Source of the DNA: Arthrobacter sp. Soil764
GTDB taxonomy: Bacteria; Actinomycetota; Actinomycetes; Actinomycetales; Micrococcaceae
NCBI RefSeq assembly: GCF_001428075.1
Contig: NZ_LMSI01000004.1
Span: forward strand, 1-64,000
Direction of reading: 5' to 3'
Length of the DNA: 64,000 nt
Shown: positions 22,624 to 26,441 of the stretch, piece by piece
Position numbering within the stretch: the stretch's first letter is position 1
How the letters are laid out: each line of letters begins with the position of its first letter
Notes under the pieces: model-generated
Database searches by the model: none
Seen by the model: the letters and a program-made list of their open reading frames with translations, nothing else
What the model was told of the DNA's origin: nothing
Program-made: the position numbers and the translations under genes

Positions 22624-23736
22624 ATGGTCTCTCCCCCCGAAATCCGCCGTGCCGTGGTCATTGAAGATGACCCGGACATCCGAGGGCTGCTGGTCCGCGT
22701 CCTGGTCAAACAGGGCTTTGACGTCACCCAGGCCGGTGCGGGTTTGCCGGGCGTGGAGGAGGTCCGCCGCATCAAACCGGACCTGGTGACCCTGGACCTG
22801 AACCTGCCGGACCTTGACGGGCTCGAGGTGTGCAAGCTCCTGCGGGAATTCTCGGACGCATTCATCGTGATGCTCACCGCCCGTGCGGACGAACTCGACA
22901 AGCTGACCGGCCTGGACAACGGCGCGGACGAATACATCAGCAAGCCATTCAGCCCCCGGGAACTGCAGTCCCGCATCAATGCCCTGTTCCGGCGCCGCCC
23001 CTCAGCCGCAGCGGAATCCGCGTCCCGGGGCGAACTGGAACGCGCCACCGAAGTGCAGCAAAGCCTCCTGCCCAAGGAAGACATCCGGGTTGACGGTTAC
23101 GACGTCGCCGGCCTTTTCCGCCCGTCCCGCAGTGTGGGCGGGGACTTCTACGACTGGTACCAGACGCCTGACGGGCTCCACCTCACCTTTGCCGATGCCA
23201 TGGGCAAGGGCATGGGCGCGGCGCTGATCGCGGCAACAGTCCGGGCAGTGATGCGCTCCACCGGCCTGCGGCAGGACCTGGACTCCGGGTTCGCCGCGGC
23301 CAGCAAGGCGATCGCCGCGGACCTGGACTCCTCCAATTCCTTCGTCACCCTGTTCCACGCCCGCCTGAACGCGGCCTCCGGCAAGGTCAGCTATGTCGAC
23401 GCCGGGCACGGCCTCGCGCTGCACGTCCAGCCAAGCGGCCCGGCAGACCGCCTCCCCTCCGCCGGACCGCCGGTTGGTGCCTGGCCGGGAACACAGTGGC
23501 CGCAGGCGGACCTGGAGCTTGCCCCCGGCGACTCGCTGGTGGTGGTCAGCGACGGCGTACTGGATGTTTTTGGGTCCGTGGAGGACTTCGCCGACGCTGT
23601 GCAGCAGGCAACCCAGTCCGCAGGTTCGGCGCAGGAAGCCAGCACGTCCATCCTTGCCCTCGCCCCCGCTGAGACCGCCGAAGACGACGTGACGGTGGTT
23701 GTGGTCCGGCGGCTGCCCGTGGAGGCAGCGGCGTGA
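22624..23736 (+). CDS. response regulator with PP2C-type (SpoIIE/RsbU) phosphatase output
   Basis: A 370-residue two-domain protein. Residues about 8-125 are a receiver: acidic pocket IEDDPD, phospho-acceptor Asp58 in LVTLDLNLPDLDG, switch Thr in MLTARAD and Lys in YISKPFSP. A short helix follows, and then a SpoIIE-type Ser/Thr phosphatase with RSVGGDFYDWY, FADAMGKGMGAALIAATV, VVVSDGVLD and AEDDVTVVVV, which keep the metal-binding Asp residues. It should dephosphorylate an anti-sigma-antagonist-like STAS protein when the receiver is phosphorylated; the STAS partner is encoded two genes downstream. It overlaps the next gene in a GTGA. No histidine kinase is adjacent. Confidence 0.92.
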   Translation: MVSPPEIRRAVVIEDDPDIRGLLVRVLVKQGFDVTQAGAGLPGVEEVRRIKPDLVTLDLNLPDLDGLEVCKLLREFSDAFIVMLTARADELDKLTGLDNGADEYISKPFSPRELQSRINALFRRRPSAAAESASRGELERATEVQQSLLPKEDIRVDGYDVAGLFRPSRSVGGDFYDWYQTPDGLHLTFADAMGKGMGAALIAATVRAVMRSTGLRQDLDSGFAAASKAIAADLDSSNSFVTLFHARLNAASGKVSYVDAGHGLALHVQPSGPADRLPSAGPPVGAWPGTQWPQADLELAPGDSLVVVSDGVLDVFGSVEDFADAVQQATQSAGSAQEASTSILALAPAETAEDDVTVVVVRRLPVEAAA

Positions 23737-25691
23737 CCCGTTTCTGGACCCGGCTGGTGGTTGTCCTCACCGTCCTGACTGGCCTGAATTACATCGCGTG
23801 GCGCTGGATGGCGTCCCTGAACTGGGAGGCCTGGTGGATCGCCCTGCCCCTGGTGGTGGCGGAAACCTACAGCCTCATCGACGTCATGCTCTTCGGCATG
23901 ACCGTGTGGAAACTGAAGATCCGCAAGGGCGCTCCCGCGCCGCCGCATGATGCAACGGTGGACGTCTTCATCACCACGTACAACGAAGACCTCGATATGG
24001 TCCTCACCACGGCACTCGCTGCCCAGAAGATCCGGCACCCGCACAGCACCTGGATCCTGGACGATGGCGCCCGGCCCGAGCTCAAGGCCCTGGCTGAACA
24101 GCATGGCCTGGGCTACGTGACCCGCAGCGGGGACTGGACCAAGGACCTTCCCCGCCACGCCAAGGCCGGCAACCTGAACAACGCCCTCATGGTCACCCAC
24201 GGCGAGTTCCTGCTGATCCTGGACGCGGACCAGATCCCGGAGCCGGACATCCTGGAGAAGACACTGGGCTACTTCAACAACCGCCGGGTGGCCCTGGTCC
24301 AAACCCCCCAGTACTTCAGCAATGTCCCTGCCGATGATCCGCTCGGCAGCCAGGCGCCGCTGTTCTACGGCCCCATCCAGCAGGGCAAGGACGGCTGGAA
24401 CGCCGCCTTCTTCTGCGGTTCCAACGCCATCCTGCGCCGCGAAGCCCTGATGCAGCTGGGCCTGGTGGGTTACGTCAAGGAAACCGAGAAGAGCATCCGC
24501 CGCGCCCTGGCCGCATCCCGGGCAGCCATCAAGCAGGCCCGCAAGTCAGCGGACATGGACTCGCCGCTGGTGGCGGAAGTCCTGGACGAGGTGGAGGCAG
24601 CCACCCGCGAAGCCCAGGAGGAAGTGGACGCCGGCAGGCCGCTCAGCGAGGTCACGTACCGGGTCCGCCGCAGGGTGGATGCCGCCGTGCAGACCCTGGT
24701 CCAGGCCGACGTCGCCGCCCTCCAGGCGGACCTCGAAGAGATCGCCGCCATGGAACTGGCCCACGTGGGCGAGTCCGGCGTCCCCGTGGTGGCTGACGAC
24801 GCCGTCCAGCGTATGGCCGCCCGTGACTGGTCCCCGCTGGGCGCCCTGGAATCCGTCCAGGCCGTCCTCGATGCACTCACGGTGGAGCGAAACGACGAAG
24901 CCCAGCCGGTGATGCCGCTGGCCACCATTTCCGTCACCGAGGACATGGCTACCGCCATGCGCATGCACGCCATGGGCTGGGAGAGTGTCTACCACCACGA
25001 GATCCTGGCCTACGGCCTGGCGCCCGAGGACATCGCCACCATGCTCACCCAGCGCCTCCGCTGGGCGCAGGGCACCATCCAGGTGCTGCTCCGCGAAAAC
25101 CCGCTGGTGCAGAAGGGCCTCAAGCTCGGCCAGCGCCTGATGTACTTGGCCACCATGTGGACCTACCTCAGCGGGTTCGCGGCGGTCATCTACTTCGCAG
25201 CCCCCATCATCTACCTGCTGCTGGGCATCCTGCCGGTCAGCAGCCTGAGCTGGGACTTCTTCATCCGCTTCATCCCGTTCATGGTGGTCAACCAGCTGCT
25301 GTTCGCCGTGGCCGGCCGCGGCATCCCCACCTGGCGCGGGCAGCAGTACAGCCTGGCGCTGTTCCCCACCTGGATCAAGGCATGCACGACGGCGGCCCGG
25401 AACGTGTGGTTCGGCCGTCCCCTGGGGTTTGCGGTCACCCCCAAGGCGCGCCAAAGTGGCGGACCCAGCTGGAGCCTCATCCGGCCCCAGATCGTGGTGT
25501 CCGTCCTGCTGGCCGTCGCCGCCGTCGTCGGAATCATCCGCCTGGCCACCGGCCTGGCGGAACCGCTGGGCACCCTGGTCAACGTTGTTTGGGTGGTCTT
25601 TGACCTGGTGGTCATGAGCATCCTGGTCCGCGCCGTGCTCTATAAGGGGTACGAACCGGCCGCAGAACCTGCAAACAGAGAGGAACTTTGA
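23733..25691 (+). CDS. membrane family-2 glycosyltransferase, cellulose-synthase-like
   Basis: A 652-residue processive synthase. Two N-terminal helices lead into the GT-A domain: VDVFITTYNED (near 77), the metal-binding LDADQ (Asp164, Asp166), FFCGSNAILRR (227-236), ISVTEDMATAM (TED at 402-404) and QRLRWAQGT (440-448). Helices follow (YLATMWTYLSGFAAVIYFAAPIIYLLLGI and others) with a FAVTPK gate-like motif. Between FFCGSN and TED lie about 150 extra residues, helical and acidic, where bacterial BcsA has only about 20. No PilZ (c-di-GMP) domain is seen at the C-terminus. It probably polymerises and exports a beta-glycan. GTG start, overlapping the phosphatase gene; the STAS gene overlaps its stop. 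Confidence 0.9.
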   Translation: MTRFWTRLVVVLTVLTGLNYIAWRWMASLNWEAWWIALPLVVAETYSLIDVMLFGMTVWKLKIRKGAPAPPHDATVDVFITTYNEDLDMVLTTALAAQKIRHPHSTWILDDGARPELKALAEQHGLGYVTRSGDWTKDLPRHAKAGNLNNALMVTHGEFLLILDADQIPEPDILEKTLGYFNNRRVALVQTPQYFSNVPADDPLGSQAPLFYGPIQQGKDGWNAAFFCGSNAILRREALMQLGLVGYVKETEKSIRRALAASRAAIKQARKSADMDSPLVAEVLDEVEAATREAQEEVDAGRPLSEVTYRVRRRVDAAVQTLVQADVAALQADLEEIAAMELAHVGESGVPVVADDAVQRMAARDWSPLGALESVQAVLDALTVERNDEAQPVMPLATISVTEDMATAMRMHAMGWESVYHHEILAYGLAPEDIATMLTQRLRWAQGTIQVLLRENPLVQKGLKLGQRLMYLATMWTYLSGFAAVIYFAAPIIYLLLGILPVSSLSWDFFIRFIPFMVVNQLLFAVAGRGIPTWRGQQYSLALFPTWIKACTTAARNVWFGRPLGFAVTPKARQSGGPSWSLIRPQIVVSVLLAVAAVVGIIRLATGLAEPLGTLVNVVWVVFDLVVMSILVRAVLYKGYEPAAEPANREEL

Positions 25692-26023
25692 TGGAGTTCA
25701 GTTACGAGGTCAAGGATTCGTACGCCGAGGTCAAGGCGGACGGGCGGCTCAACATGGTCTCCGCGCCCAAGCTGCGCGAATTCGTTACGGACGTCATTGC
25801 CGGCGGCTCCAACCGGATCGTGGTGAACCTGGAAAACACGGCGTTCATGGACTCCTCCGGGCTGGGCGCGCTGATCGGCTGCCTCAAGGCGGCCCGCCAG
25901 GCCGGCGGCGACCTCCGGATCGCCGCGGTGCAGCCCCAGGTGAACATGGTCTTAAAGCTGACCAGCATGGACAAGGTCCTCACGGCCTACGCCACGGCCG
26001 AAGAGGCTTTCAGCAATGACTGA
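25691..26023 (+). CDS. STAS-domain anti-sigma-factor-antagonist-like protein
   Basis: A 110-residue single STAS domain. The phosphorylation loop is NTAFMDSSGLGALIG with Ser55/Ser56, matching the D-S-S-G loop of SpoIIAA and RsbV, so it should be switchable by kinase and phosphatase. The ATG overlaps the glycosyltransferase stop by one base, with AGAGGAA upstream. It sits between the synthase and the RsbW-like ATPase; the inferred role is to bind either the ATPase or the synthase according to its phosphorylation. Confidence 0.9.
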   Translation: MEFSYEVKDSYAEVKADGRLNMVSAPKLREFVTDVIAGGSNRIVVNLENTAFMDSSGLGALIGCLKAARQAGGDLRIAAVQPQVNMVLKLTSMDKVLTAYATAEEAFSND

Positions 26024-26441
26024 GGTCCTGGCTGCGCGCAGCTTCCGGGGACCTGCTGCCGAGGACGCCATCGAGGCGGTCCACAACGGCCTGGACAGCC
26101 TCTGGCTGGACGTTCCGTTCGTCACCGACATGGACCAGATGACGTTTACCACCGCGGTCATCGAGTCCGCGTCCAACATCGTCCAGCACGCGCAGCCCGC
26201 CGGGGAACGGGAGGTGGAACTTGGAGTGGAAACCACCGTGCAGCCCGCACTGCTGCAGGCGAGGGTGAGCGCCTACTACGCCAAGCCGCCGTTCGGCCCC
26301 ATGGAGCCGGCCACGCCGGGCGACGACGCCGAATCCGGACGGGGCCTGGCGCTGATCGAGGCGCTGGTCACCACGGTCACCTTCGAGCGCCAGGGCGCCA
26401 CCAATACCTGGGTGTTGTCCAGGACGTCCTCCCAGGATTAG
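26016..26441 (+). CDS. RsbW-like GHKL ATPase with an atypical G1 box
   Basis: A 141-residue HATPase_c domain. The N-box AVIESASNIVQHA keeps Glu50 and Asn54, and the G2 region ESGRGLALIEAL (106-117) is intact. At the G1 box, where RsbW-type kinases have D-x-G-x-P-F, this protein has YYAKPPFGP (residues 87-95): the Asp that contacts the adenine is missing. It may bind ATP weakly or act only as a binding partner. It overlaps the STAS gene by eight bases and ends the operon. As an anti-sigma kinase it would normally phosphorylate the STAS Ser; activity here is doubtful. Confidence 0.85.
   Translation: MTEVLAARSFRGPAAEDAIEAVHNGLDSLWLDVPFVTDMDQMTFTTAVIESASNIVQHAQPAGEREVELGVETTVQPALLQARVSAYYAKPPFGPMEPATPGDDAESGRGLALIEALVTTVTFERQGATNTWVLSRTSSQD

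Follow-up and report, generated by a model that had tools for sequence, protein, structure and literature searches.

A putative partner-switching module co-inherited with an insert-bearing, cellulose-synthase-like glycan synthase in Arthrobacter and related actinobacteria

What is known of how processive beta-glucan synthases are controlled concerns mainly cyclic di-GMP (c-di-GMP), which in the cellulose synthase BcsA acts together with a PilZ domain. Here we describe an operon of Arthrobacter sp. Soil764 in which a cellulose-synthase-like enzyme is encoded together with the components of a partner-switching module. The operon occupies positions 22624-26441, on the forward strand, of a stretch of 64,000 nucleotides (contig NZ_LMSI01000004.1, positions 1 to 64,000), which we refer to as the window. 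Judging from genomic evidence, partner switching here probably acts post-translationally on the synthase, and not on a sigma factor.

Among described systems, SiaABCD of Pseudomonas aeruginosa consists of the PP2C phosphatase SiaA, the kinase SiaB, the STAS-like protein SiaC and the diguanylate cyclase SiaD, and the accessible text of one study reports that unphosphorylated SiaC directly activates SiaD (PMC8457831). The Arthrobacter operon resembles SiaABCD in its four-protein logic and in having an enzyme rather than a sigma factor as its apparent output, as gene linkage suggests. Because SiaC and SiaD show that such an output exists, an enzyme-directed switch is plausible by analogy. The two systems differ in that SiaC belongs to the DUF1987 proteins, is phosphorylated on Thr68 and has a diguanylate cyclase as its target, whereas the operon encodes a STAS protein with a DSSG loop, whose target would be a membrane glycan synthase. 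With SpoIIAA/SpoIIAB/SpoIIE and RsbV/RsbW/RsbU the operon shares protein folds, the DSSG loop, the N- and G2-boxes and the type of PP2C; it departs from them in carrying a synthase in the place of the sigma factor, and in the loss of the G1-box aspartate in the clade to which the window belongs. STAS-based partner switching has also been tied to polysaccharide or biofilm formation in Vibrio fischeri (SypA/SypE; PMC4517449) and Nostoc (HmpU/V/W; PMC8256260), but the accessible portions of these two descriptions, which we compared as text and not as loci, contain no insert-bearing synthase of the kind described below.

The synthase shares with BcsA its glycosyltransferase family 2 (GT2) core, catalytic motifs and gating motif, and differs from it by having no detected PilZ domain, an additional insert and partner-switch genes in its operon. 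In these respects it can also be compared with BgsA, the mixed-linkage beta-glucan synthase of Sinorhizobium, another BcsA-like GT2 enzyme without PilZ. According to the accessible text on BgsA (PMC5567048), c-di-GMP control is exerted through a C-terminal tail of 139 residues, and the operon synthase has no counterpart of such length. GH26 genes neighbouring operon-type synthases suggest that the products of the two enzymes may be related. We also considered Burkholderia bspP, which combines SpoIIE and HATPase domains and is associated with raised c-di-GMP and bcsB, and set it aside, as the accessible text (PMC7444824) gives no link between a STAS protein and a synthase. Among the matches listed in a literature search, which left most subscription papers outside, no partner switch acting on a glycan synthase was described.

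The first gene of the operon (22624-23736) encodes a receiver-PP2C phosphatase of the RsbU/SpoIIE type with 370 residues, in which Pfam places a receiver domain at about 22654-22977 (Response_reg, E 2.5e-25) and a PP2C domain at about 23167-23712 (SpoIIE/PP2C, E 1.3e-31). The second gene, which starts with GTG (23733-25691), encodes a 652-residue membrane GT2 processive glycan synthase of cellulose-synthase-like type (Cellulose_synt, E 1.7e-24, plus GT2 families). It is followed by a gene for a single-domain STAS protein of the anti-anti-sigma type (25691-26023; 110 residues; STAS, E 1.6e-18; TIGR00377 over cut-off) and by a gene for an ATPase of the RsbW/SpoIIAB fold (26016-26441; 141 residues; HATPase_c_2, E 4.7e-10). 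Successive genes overlap by 4, 1 and 8 bases. A preliminary description, made from the sequence alone, had proposed four overlapping genes with these identities and an intact D-S-S-G loop in the STAS protein; all four open reading frames and their Pfam assignments agree with it, and residues 54-57 (25850-25861) indeed read D-S-S-G.

The same description suggested looking for this gene order in other actinobacterial genomes, where we found it to recur. From a scan of named genomes we kept the best 80 of 409 relatives, all Micrococcales (near loci), and we further used an even sample of 394 genomes of the class and a sample of 396 genomes of the order. Phosphatase, synthase, STAS and ATPase genes follow one another in the same order and on the same strand in 72 of the 80 near loci. 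With start codons picked by script, overlaps within these 72 loci were counted at all 72 STAS/ATPase junctions, at 71 synthase/STAS junctions and at 46 phosphatase/synthase junctions. The shorter series of synthase, STAS and ATPase genes is contiguous in 75 of the 80. The five exceptions comprise a locus at a contig end (L042), three loci in which the STAS-ATPase pair lies on the opposite strand 1.6 to 3.2 kb away (L087, L090 and L092), and A. agilis (L084), to which we return below. Two pairs of rows are redundant, L219 and L089 being from the same genome and L178 and L090 from the same place.

Linkage persists at greater distance. In the class sample 22 genomes have a full-length synthase and 20 have an ATPase match (E<=1e-15), which in every case lies just downstream of a full-length synthase on the same strand; a further genome (G337) gave no ATPase match at this cut-off, yet has a 52-bit ATPase in place. 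By these profiles, some sampled genomes of families f1, f4 and f34 carry both genes and others carry neither. Synthase, STAS and ATPase genes are contiguous in all 19 distant loci (L140-L158), with the phosphatase upstream in 16, downstream in two and not seen in one, near a contig end. In the order sample the ATPase was found at 23 places in 22 genomes (E<=1e-8). Of the 20 places fetched, 18 contain the core; one of the others has a truncated second ATPase, in a genome whose full module lies elsewhere, and the last is a match of 38.8 bits with neither STAS nor synthase beside it. Altogether the module recurs in nine families (f1, f4, f6, f8, f11, f33, f34, f116 and f125), and the arrangement is therefore not due to chance. 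A phylum-wide synthase search (396 genomes, E<=1e-60) gave two matches, and because both fall in the class of the window, no outgroup for the synthase is available. That the regulators travel with one type of synthase in several actinobacterial families suggests switching of the enzyme itself.

Some loci have features of their own. Arthrobacter strain AQ5-05 has two synthase-STAS-ATPase loci on separate contigs (L070 and L073). In three distant genomes a gene for an OmpR-type response regulator, recognized by Pfam, lies divergently adjacent to the module (L141:11852-12601, L143:11940-12893 and L155:11939-12739), and it may control transcription of the operon there.

The insert sets the synthase of the module apart from other enzymes of its kind. 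Residues 3-245 and 397-631 of the synthase align with cellulose synthase chain 7lby_A, while residues 246-396 have no counterpart in that chain. This insert of about 150 residues (24468-24920), absent from the preliminary description, lies between FCGS...RREAL and VTED. The GT2 motif set of BcsA (D, DxD, TED, Q(Q/R)xRW and the FxVTxK gating loop) is complete: in 81 aligned rows, including the window, DDG is present in 80, and DxD, FCGS, TED, QRLRW and FAVTPK (the gating-loop motif, at 25428-25445) are present in all. The score for the NCBIfam CelA equivalog, 355.4 bits, is below its cut-off of 699.1. Insert length is 151-161 residues in all 28 aligned rows, taken from near and distant loci. 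An AlphaFold model of the synthase reached a predicted local distance difference test (pLDDT) score of only 53 overall and was therefore unfit for a fold search; we quote from it only the helical pattern, and the insert is helical only in this low-confidence model. A TraB match over the insert (Pfam E 0.006; 0.052 in L178; not listed for L153) was taken as chance.

Homologues without the insert provide a comparison. We fetched 16 of the 26 places listed in the class sample, and in these the alignment to the synthase profile jumps from about residue 243 to about residue 396. No STAS, ATPase or PP2C match was found beside any of the 16, within flanks of 1.1-6.9 kb a side. In the genomes compared, the insert-bearing synthases are thus the switch-bearing ones. 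One insert-less GT2 frame (L194:4308-7451) also has a PMT_2 mannosyltransferase-like domain and is flanked by two GH26-like genes; its fetched stretch contains no partner-switch genes.

As proposed in the preliminary description, the synthase appears to have no PilZ domain. A Pfam search at E<=10 found none, and the same search did detect PilZ in three of the 10 insert-less homologues scanned, in two of them over cut-off. After the gating-loop motif the synthase continues for 81 residues and, in the low-confidence model, ends about 16 residues past its last predicted helix, so that there seems to be little room for such a domain. The missing PilZ alone does not exclude control by c-di-GMP, since BgsA binds c-di-GMP without one.

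The switch proteins retain most of the residues expected of them. Aspartates 174, 191, 310, 354 and 355 of the phosphatase, which we take to be its metal site, are invariant in 79 of 79 aligned rows, including the window. Most close relatives have the receiver, whose phospho-acceptor aspartate is kept in 67 of 78 rows with residues in the columns concerned, and all eight distant phosphatases tested have a GAF sensor instead, one of them through a GAF_2 match barely over cut-off. The sensor of the PP2C protein is swappable while the core is constant. The DSSG loop of the STAS protein is invariant in 116 of 116 rows, including the window. Because S55 aligns with an alanine of SpoIIAA chain 1tid_B that presumably marks the phosphosite, S55 is the likelier phosphosite of the STAS protein.

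The ATPase was called RsbW-like in the preliminary description, which holds for its fold and for two of its three boxes. The best fold matches of its model (pLDDT 88) are entries for UsfX, RsbW and SpoIIAB (Z 14.0-15.2); LvrC (12.9) and SiaB (12.2; the SiaB-SiaC entry 6kko, a further likeness to SiaABCD) come next, and then histidine kinases (9.0 and below). A phmmer search against PDB sequences gave unrelated matches only, and the RsbW-type relatives came from the fold search. N-box residues E50, N54 and H58 (26163-26189) are kept in 116 of 116 rows, and the G2 box (ESGRG; 26331-26348) is intact in the window. The N, G1 and G2 set of a GHKL kinase is incomplete, as the G1-box aspartate (position about 26268-26285) is replaced by alanine in the window and by alanine, glutamate or glycine in 79 of 79 near rows, the window included. 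Of 37 rows outside the 80-locus set, 27 keep it. In a synthase tree with 69 rows, for which the near loci were thinned, the loss marks one clade of 40 rows that includes the window (support 100/100), with two single histidine rows elsewhere. One module from the genus of the window (L227, genome G911) falls with the f34 type and still has the aspartate; its branch is long, its place in the tree is unsure, and horizontal transfer is possible. This residue contacts adenine in GHKL proteins, and with its loss the ATPase of the window's clade may not bind ATP in the usual manner. In the genome of the window, the operon contains the only STAS_2 match (PF01740 was not searched genome-wide) and, as its ATPase, the only PF13581 match over cut-off in a short open frame (159 residues). 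Two SpoIIE matches are present, the second being a PPM-type PP2C by eye.

On the basis of these linkages and motifs, we propose that a signal would be read by the sensor of the phosphatase, through the receiver here or through GAF in the distant relatives tested, upon which the PP2C domain would remove the phosphate from the DSSG loop of the STAS protein. The RsbW-like ATPase would oppose the phosphatase by phosphorylating or binding the STAS protein. Free, unphosphorylated STAS protein would most likely dock on the insert of about 153 residues between the two catalytic motifs and activate chain synthesis, the task performed in BcsA by c-di-GMP and PilZ. Provided that control is direct, contact with the synthase is probably made by the STAS protein; the other arrangement, in which the ATPase contacts the synthase and the STAS protein pulls it off, is a serious but lesser possibility. 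The preliminary description had proposed that phosphorylation of the STAS protein controls glycan synthesis directly: direct action is the best-supported reading, whereas the analysis leaves either the STAS protein or the ATPase as the actor, and the G1-box loss fits poorly with a phosphorylation switch of the textbook type. If that loss abolishes the use of ATP, the Arthrobacter switch works unlike the textbook one.

Besides the G1-box loss, several observations weigh against direct control. In A. agilis, enzyme and regulators are naturally separated: the synthase (L084, 3091-5043) adjoins a GH26/OpgC gene, and a phosphatase-STAS-ATPase trio lies elsewhere in the genome, unlinked to it (L175, 6543-8523). 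One genome with a full-length synthase, 80% complete, has no ATPase at E<=1e-10, its contig ending after the synthase (G108), and a 23rd genome has a partial synthase match with an internal stop and likewise no ATPase at E<=1e-10 (G341). Because the insert-bearing synthases form one family, the association of insert and regulators counts as one event and not as many, and the link may thus be a single historical one. Mirror-tree partial correlations were 0.46 with STAS and 0.51 with the ATPase for the insert, against 0.39 and 0.32 for the catalytic core, and these distance correlations show no clear preference for the insert. The poor quality of the synthase model is a further weakness. Finally, SigB/F-level sigma factors are commoner in genomes with the module, a result that favours the first of the alternatives.

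This alternative, which we regard as clearly less likely than direct control, is a conventional anti-sigma switch in trans, whereby the ATPase would bind a SigB/F-like sigma factor, the STAS protein would release it, and the synthase would merely be co-transcribed as part of the regulon. A phmmer search of the window with two sigma proteins of the same genome as queries found no sigma-like gene, in agreement with the preliminary description; elsewhere, the genome has a lone SigB/F/G-like sigma gene (L012, G000:C23:3740-4402; 217.5 bits, just below the NCBIfam cut-off of 234.35). No STAS or RsbW-like ATPase gene was seen in the 3.7 kb fetched around this gene, and its product is the best candidate for a target of the ATPase in trans. 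The operon's STAS gene as the only STAS_2 match of the genome, its ATPase as the only PF13581 match over cut-off in a short frame, and the likeness of the ATPase fold to the sigma-binding UsfX and SpoIIAB, agree with such a role.

We surveyed 21 genomes with the module and 19 that lack it (40 in all), taking matches above about 145 bits as SigB/F-level (principal sigma factors score about 130). Such matches occurred in 19 of the 21 and in seven of the 19, an excess confounded by taxonomy because we picked the 19 control genomes mostly from the order of the window. Exceptions to the association exist on both sides: a 100% complete genome (G168) carries the module, and its single SigBFG match is at the level of the principal sigma factor (131.8 bits), and seven genomes have a SigB/F-level match and no module (G030, G048, G081, G158, G187, G297 and G002, the last from the genus of the window). 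In another module-bearing genome (G201) no sigma factor was matched, not even the principal one, and it was therefore not counted against this alternative. In the loci read, the ATPase keeps to the synthase, and not to a sigma gene. In none of these loci does a sigma gene replace the synthase next to the three regulators, an arrangement that the preliminary description had named as speaking against its proposal. With the two sigma queries, no sigma-like gene was found in any of the 80 near and 20 order loci, nor at the locus of the A. agilis trio. Sigma-like genes occur several kb away in five of the 19 distant stretches, and three of these (L154, L156 and L158) are principal sigma genes. Two loci of one genus (L146:15761-16639 and L147:2900-3850) have a sigma-like gene scoring about 97 bits to SigBFG, about 4 kb from the phosphatase. 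Control of a sigma factor would also leave the insert unexplained.

Considerably less probable is that the ATPase of the window's clade has become a pseudokinase, so that it binds the STAS protein constitutively after decay, or that another kinase phosphorylates the STAS protein. The uniform replacement of the G1-box aspartate in the near rows, which form a single, fully supported clade of 40 rows in the thinned tree, favours this explanation, but decay should also have eroded the N-box E/N/H residues, the G2 glycines, the DSSG loop and the PP2C aspartates, all of which are kept. Least probable of all is c-di-GMP control through a non-PilZ site, with the partner switch controlling something else or only tuning the synthase: BgsA provides the precedent and some homologues in the class do carry PilZ, but the few residues modelled beyond the last helix form no tail comparable to that of BgsA, and the strict linkage of synthase, STAS and ATPase would be left unexplained.

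Neighbouring genes hint at the product. GH26 or OpgC-type genes occur in the fetched stretches of 13 of the 80 near, 12 of the 19 distant and three of the 20 order loci, and in nine distant loci the gene immediately after the ATPase, in the same orientation, is of the OpgC type. All nine large proteins tested contain OpgC_C; their N-terminal half is only weakly GH26-like, in that L084 exceeds the Pfam cut-off, L092, L070 and L146 fall short of it, and the other five have no such match listed. For all three of the separate GH26 proteins tested, the closest solved relative is Endoglucanase H, at E 5e-40 to 7e-46, whereas mannanases and the remaining GH26 chains score no better than E 1.6e-11. 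We take Endoglucanase H to be the Clostridium lichenase CtLic26A. As these genes adjoin some of the loci, a beta-glucan product is hinted at, and our reasoned guess is a beta-glucan that is possibly (1,3;1,4)-linked and acylated. In Dickeya, according to the accessible text, OpgC is required for succinylation of glucans (PMC4726272). The window's own genome encodes an 821-residue OpgC_C membrane protein on a contig unlinked to the operon (L098, G000:C6:116026-118416), which is 55% identical to the A. agilis protein adjoining the synthase there.

We tentatively suggest that a family of beta-glucan synthases has evolved a built-in docking insert for a STAS or RsbW-like protein, with direct gating in place of c-di-GMP and PilZ, and that a clade centred on Micrococcaceae does so with an ATPase lacking the canonical adenine-binding aspartate. 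If partner switching does act on the enzyme, a phospho-switch on the synthase would be a second solution, besides c-di-GMP, to the control of beta-glucan synthesis. The module would also offer a tractable answer to a question that the accessible texts raise for SypA of Vibrio and HmpV of Nostoc, namely which partner an unphosphorylated STAS protein binds in promoting the formation of polysaccharide. Our findings also lead to a guess, open to testing, at what is made by a synthase that spans Arthrobacter and distant families of its class: a beta-glucan sensitive to GH26 and modified by OpgC.

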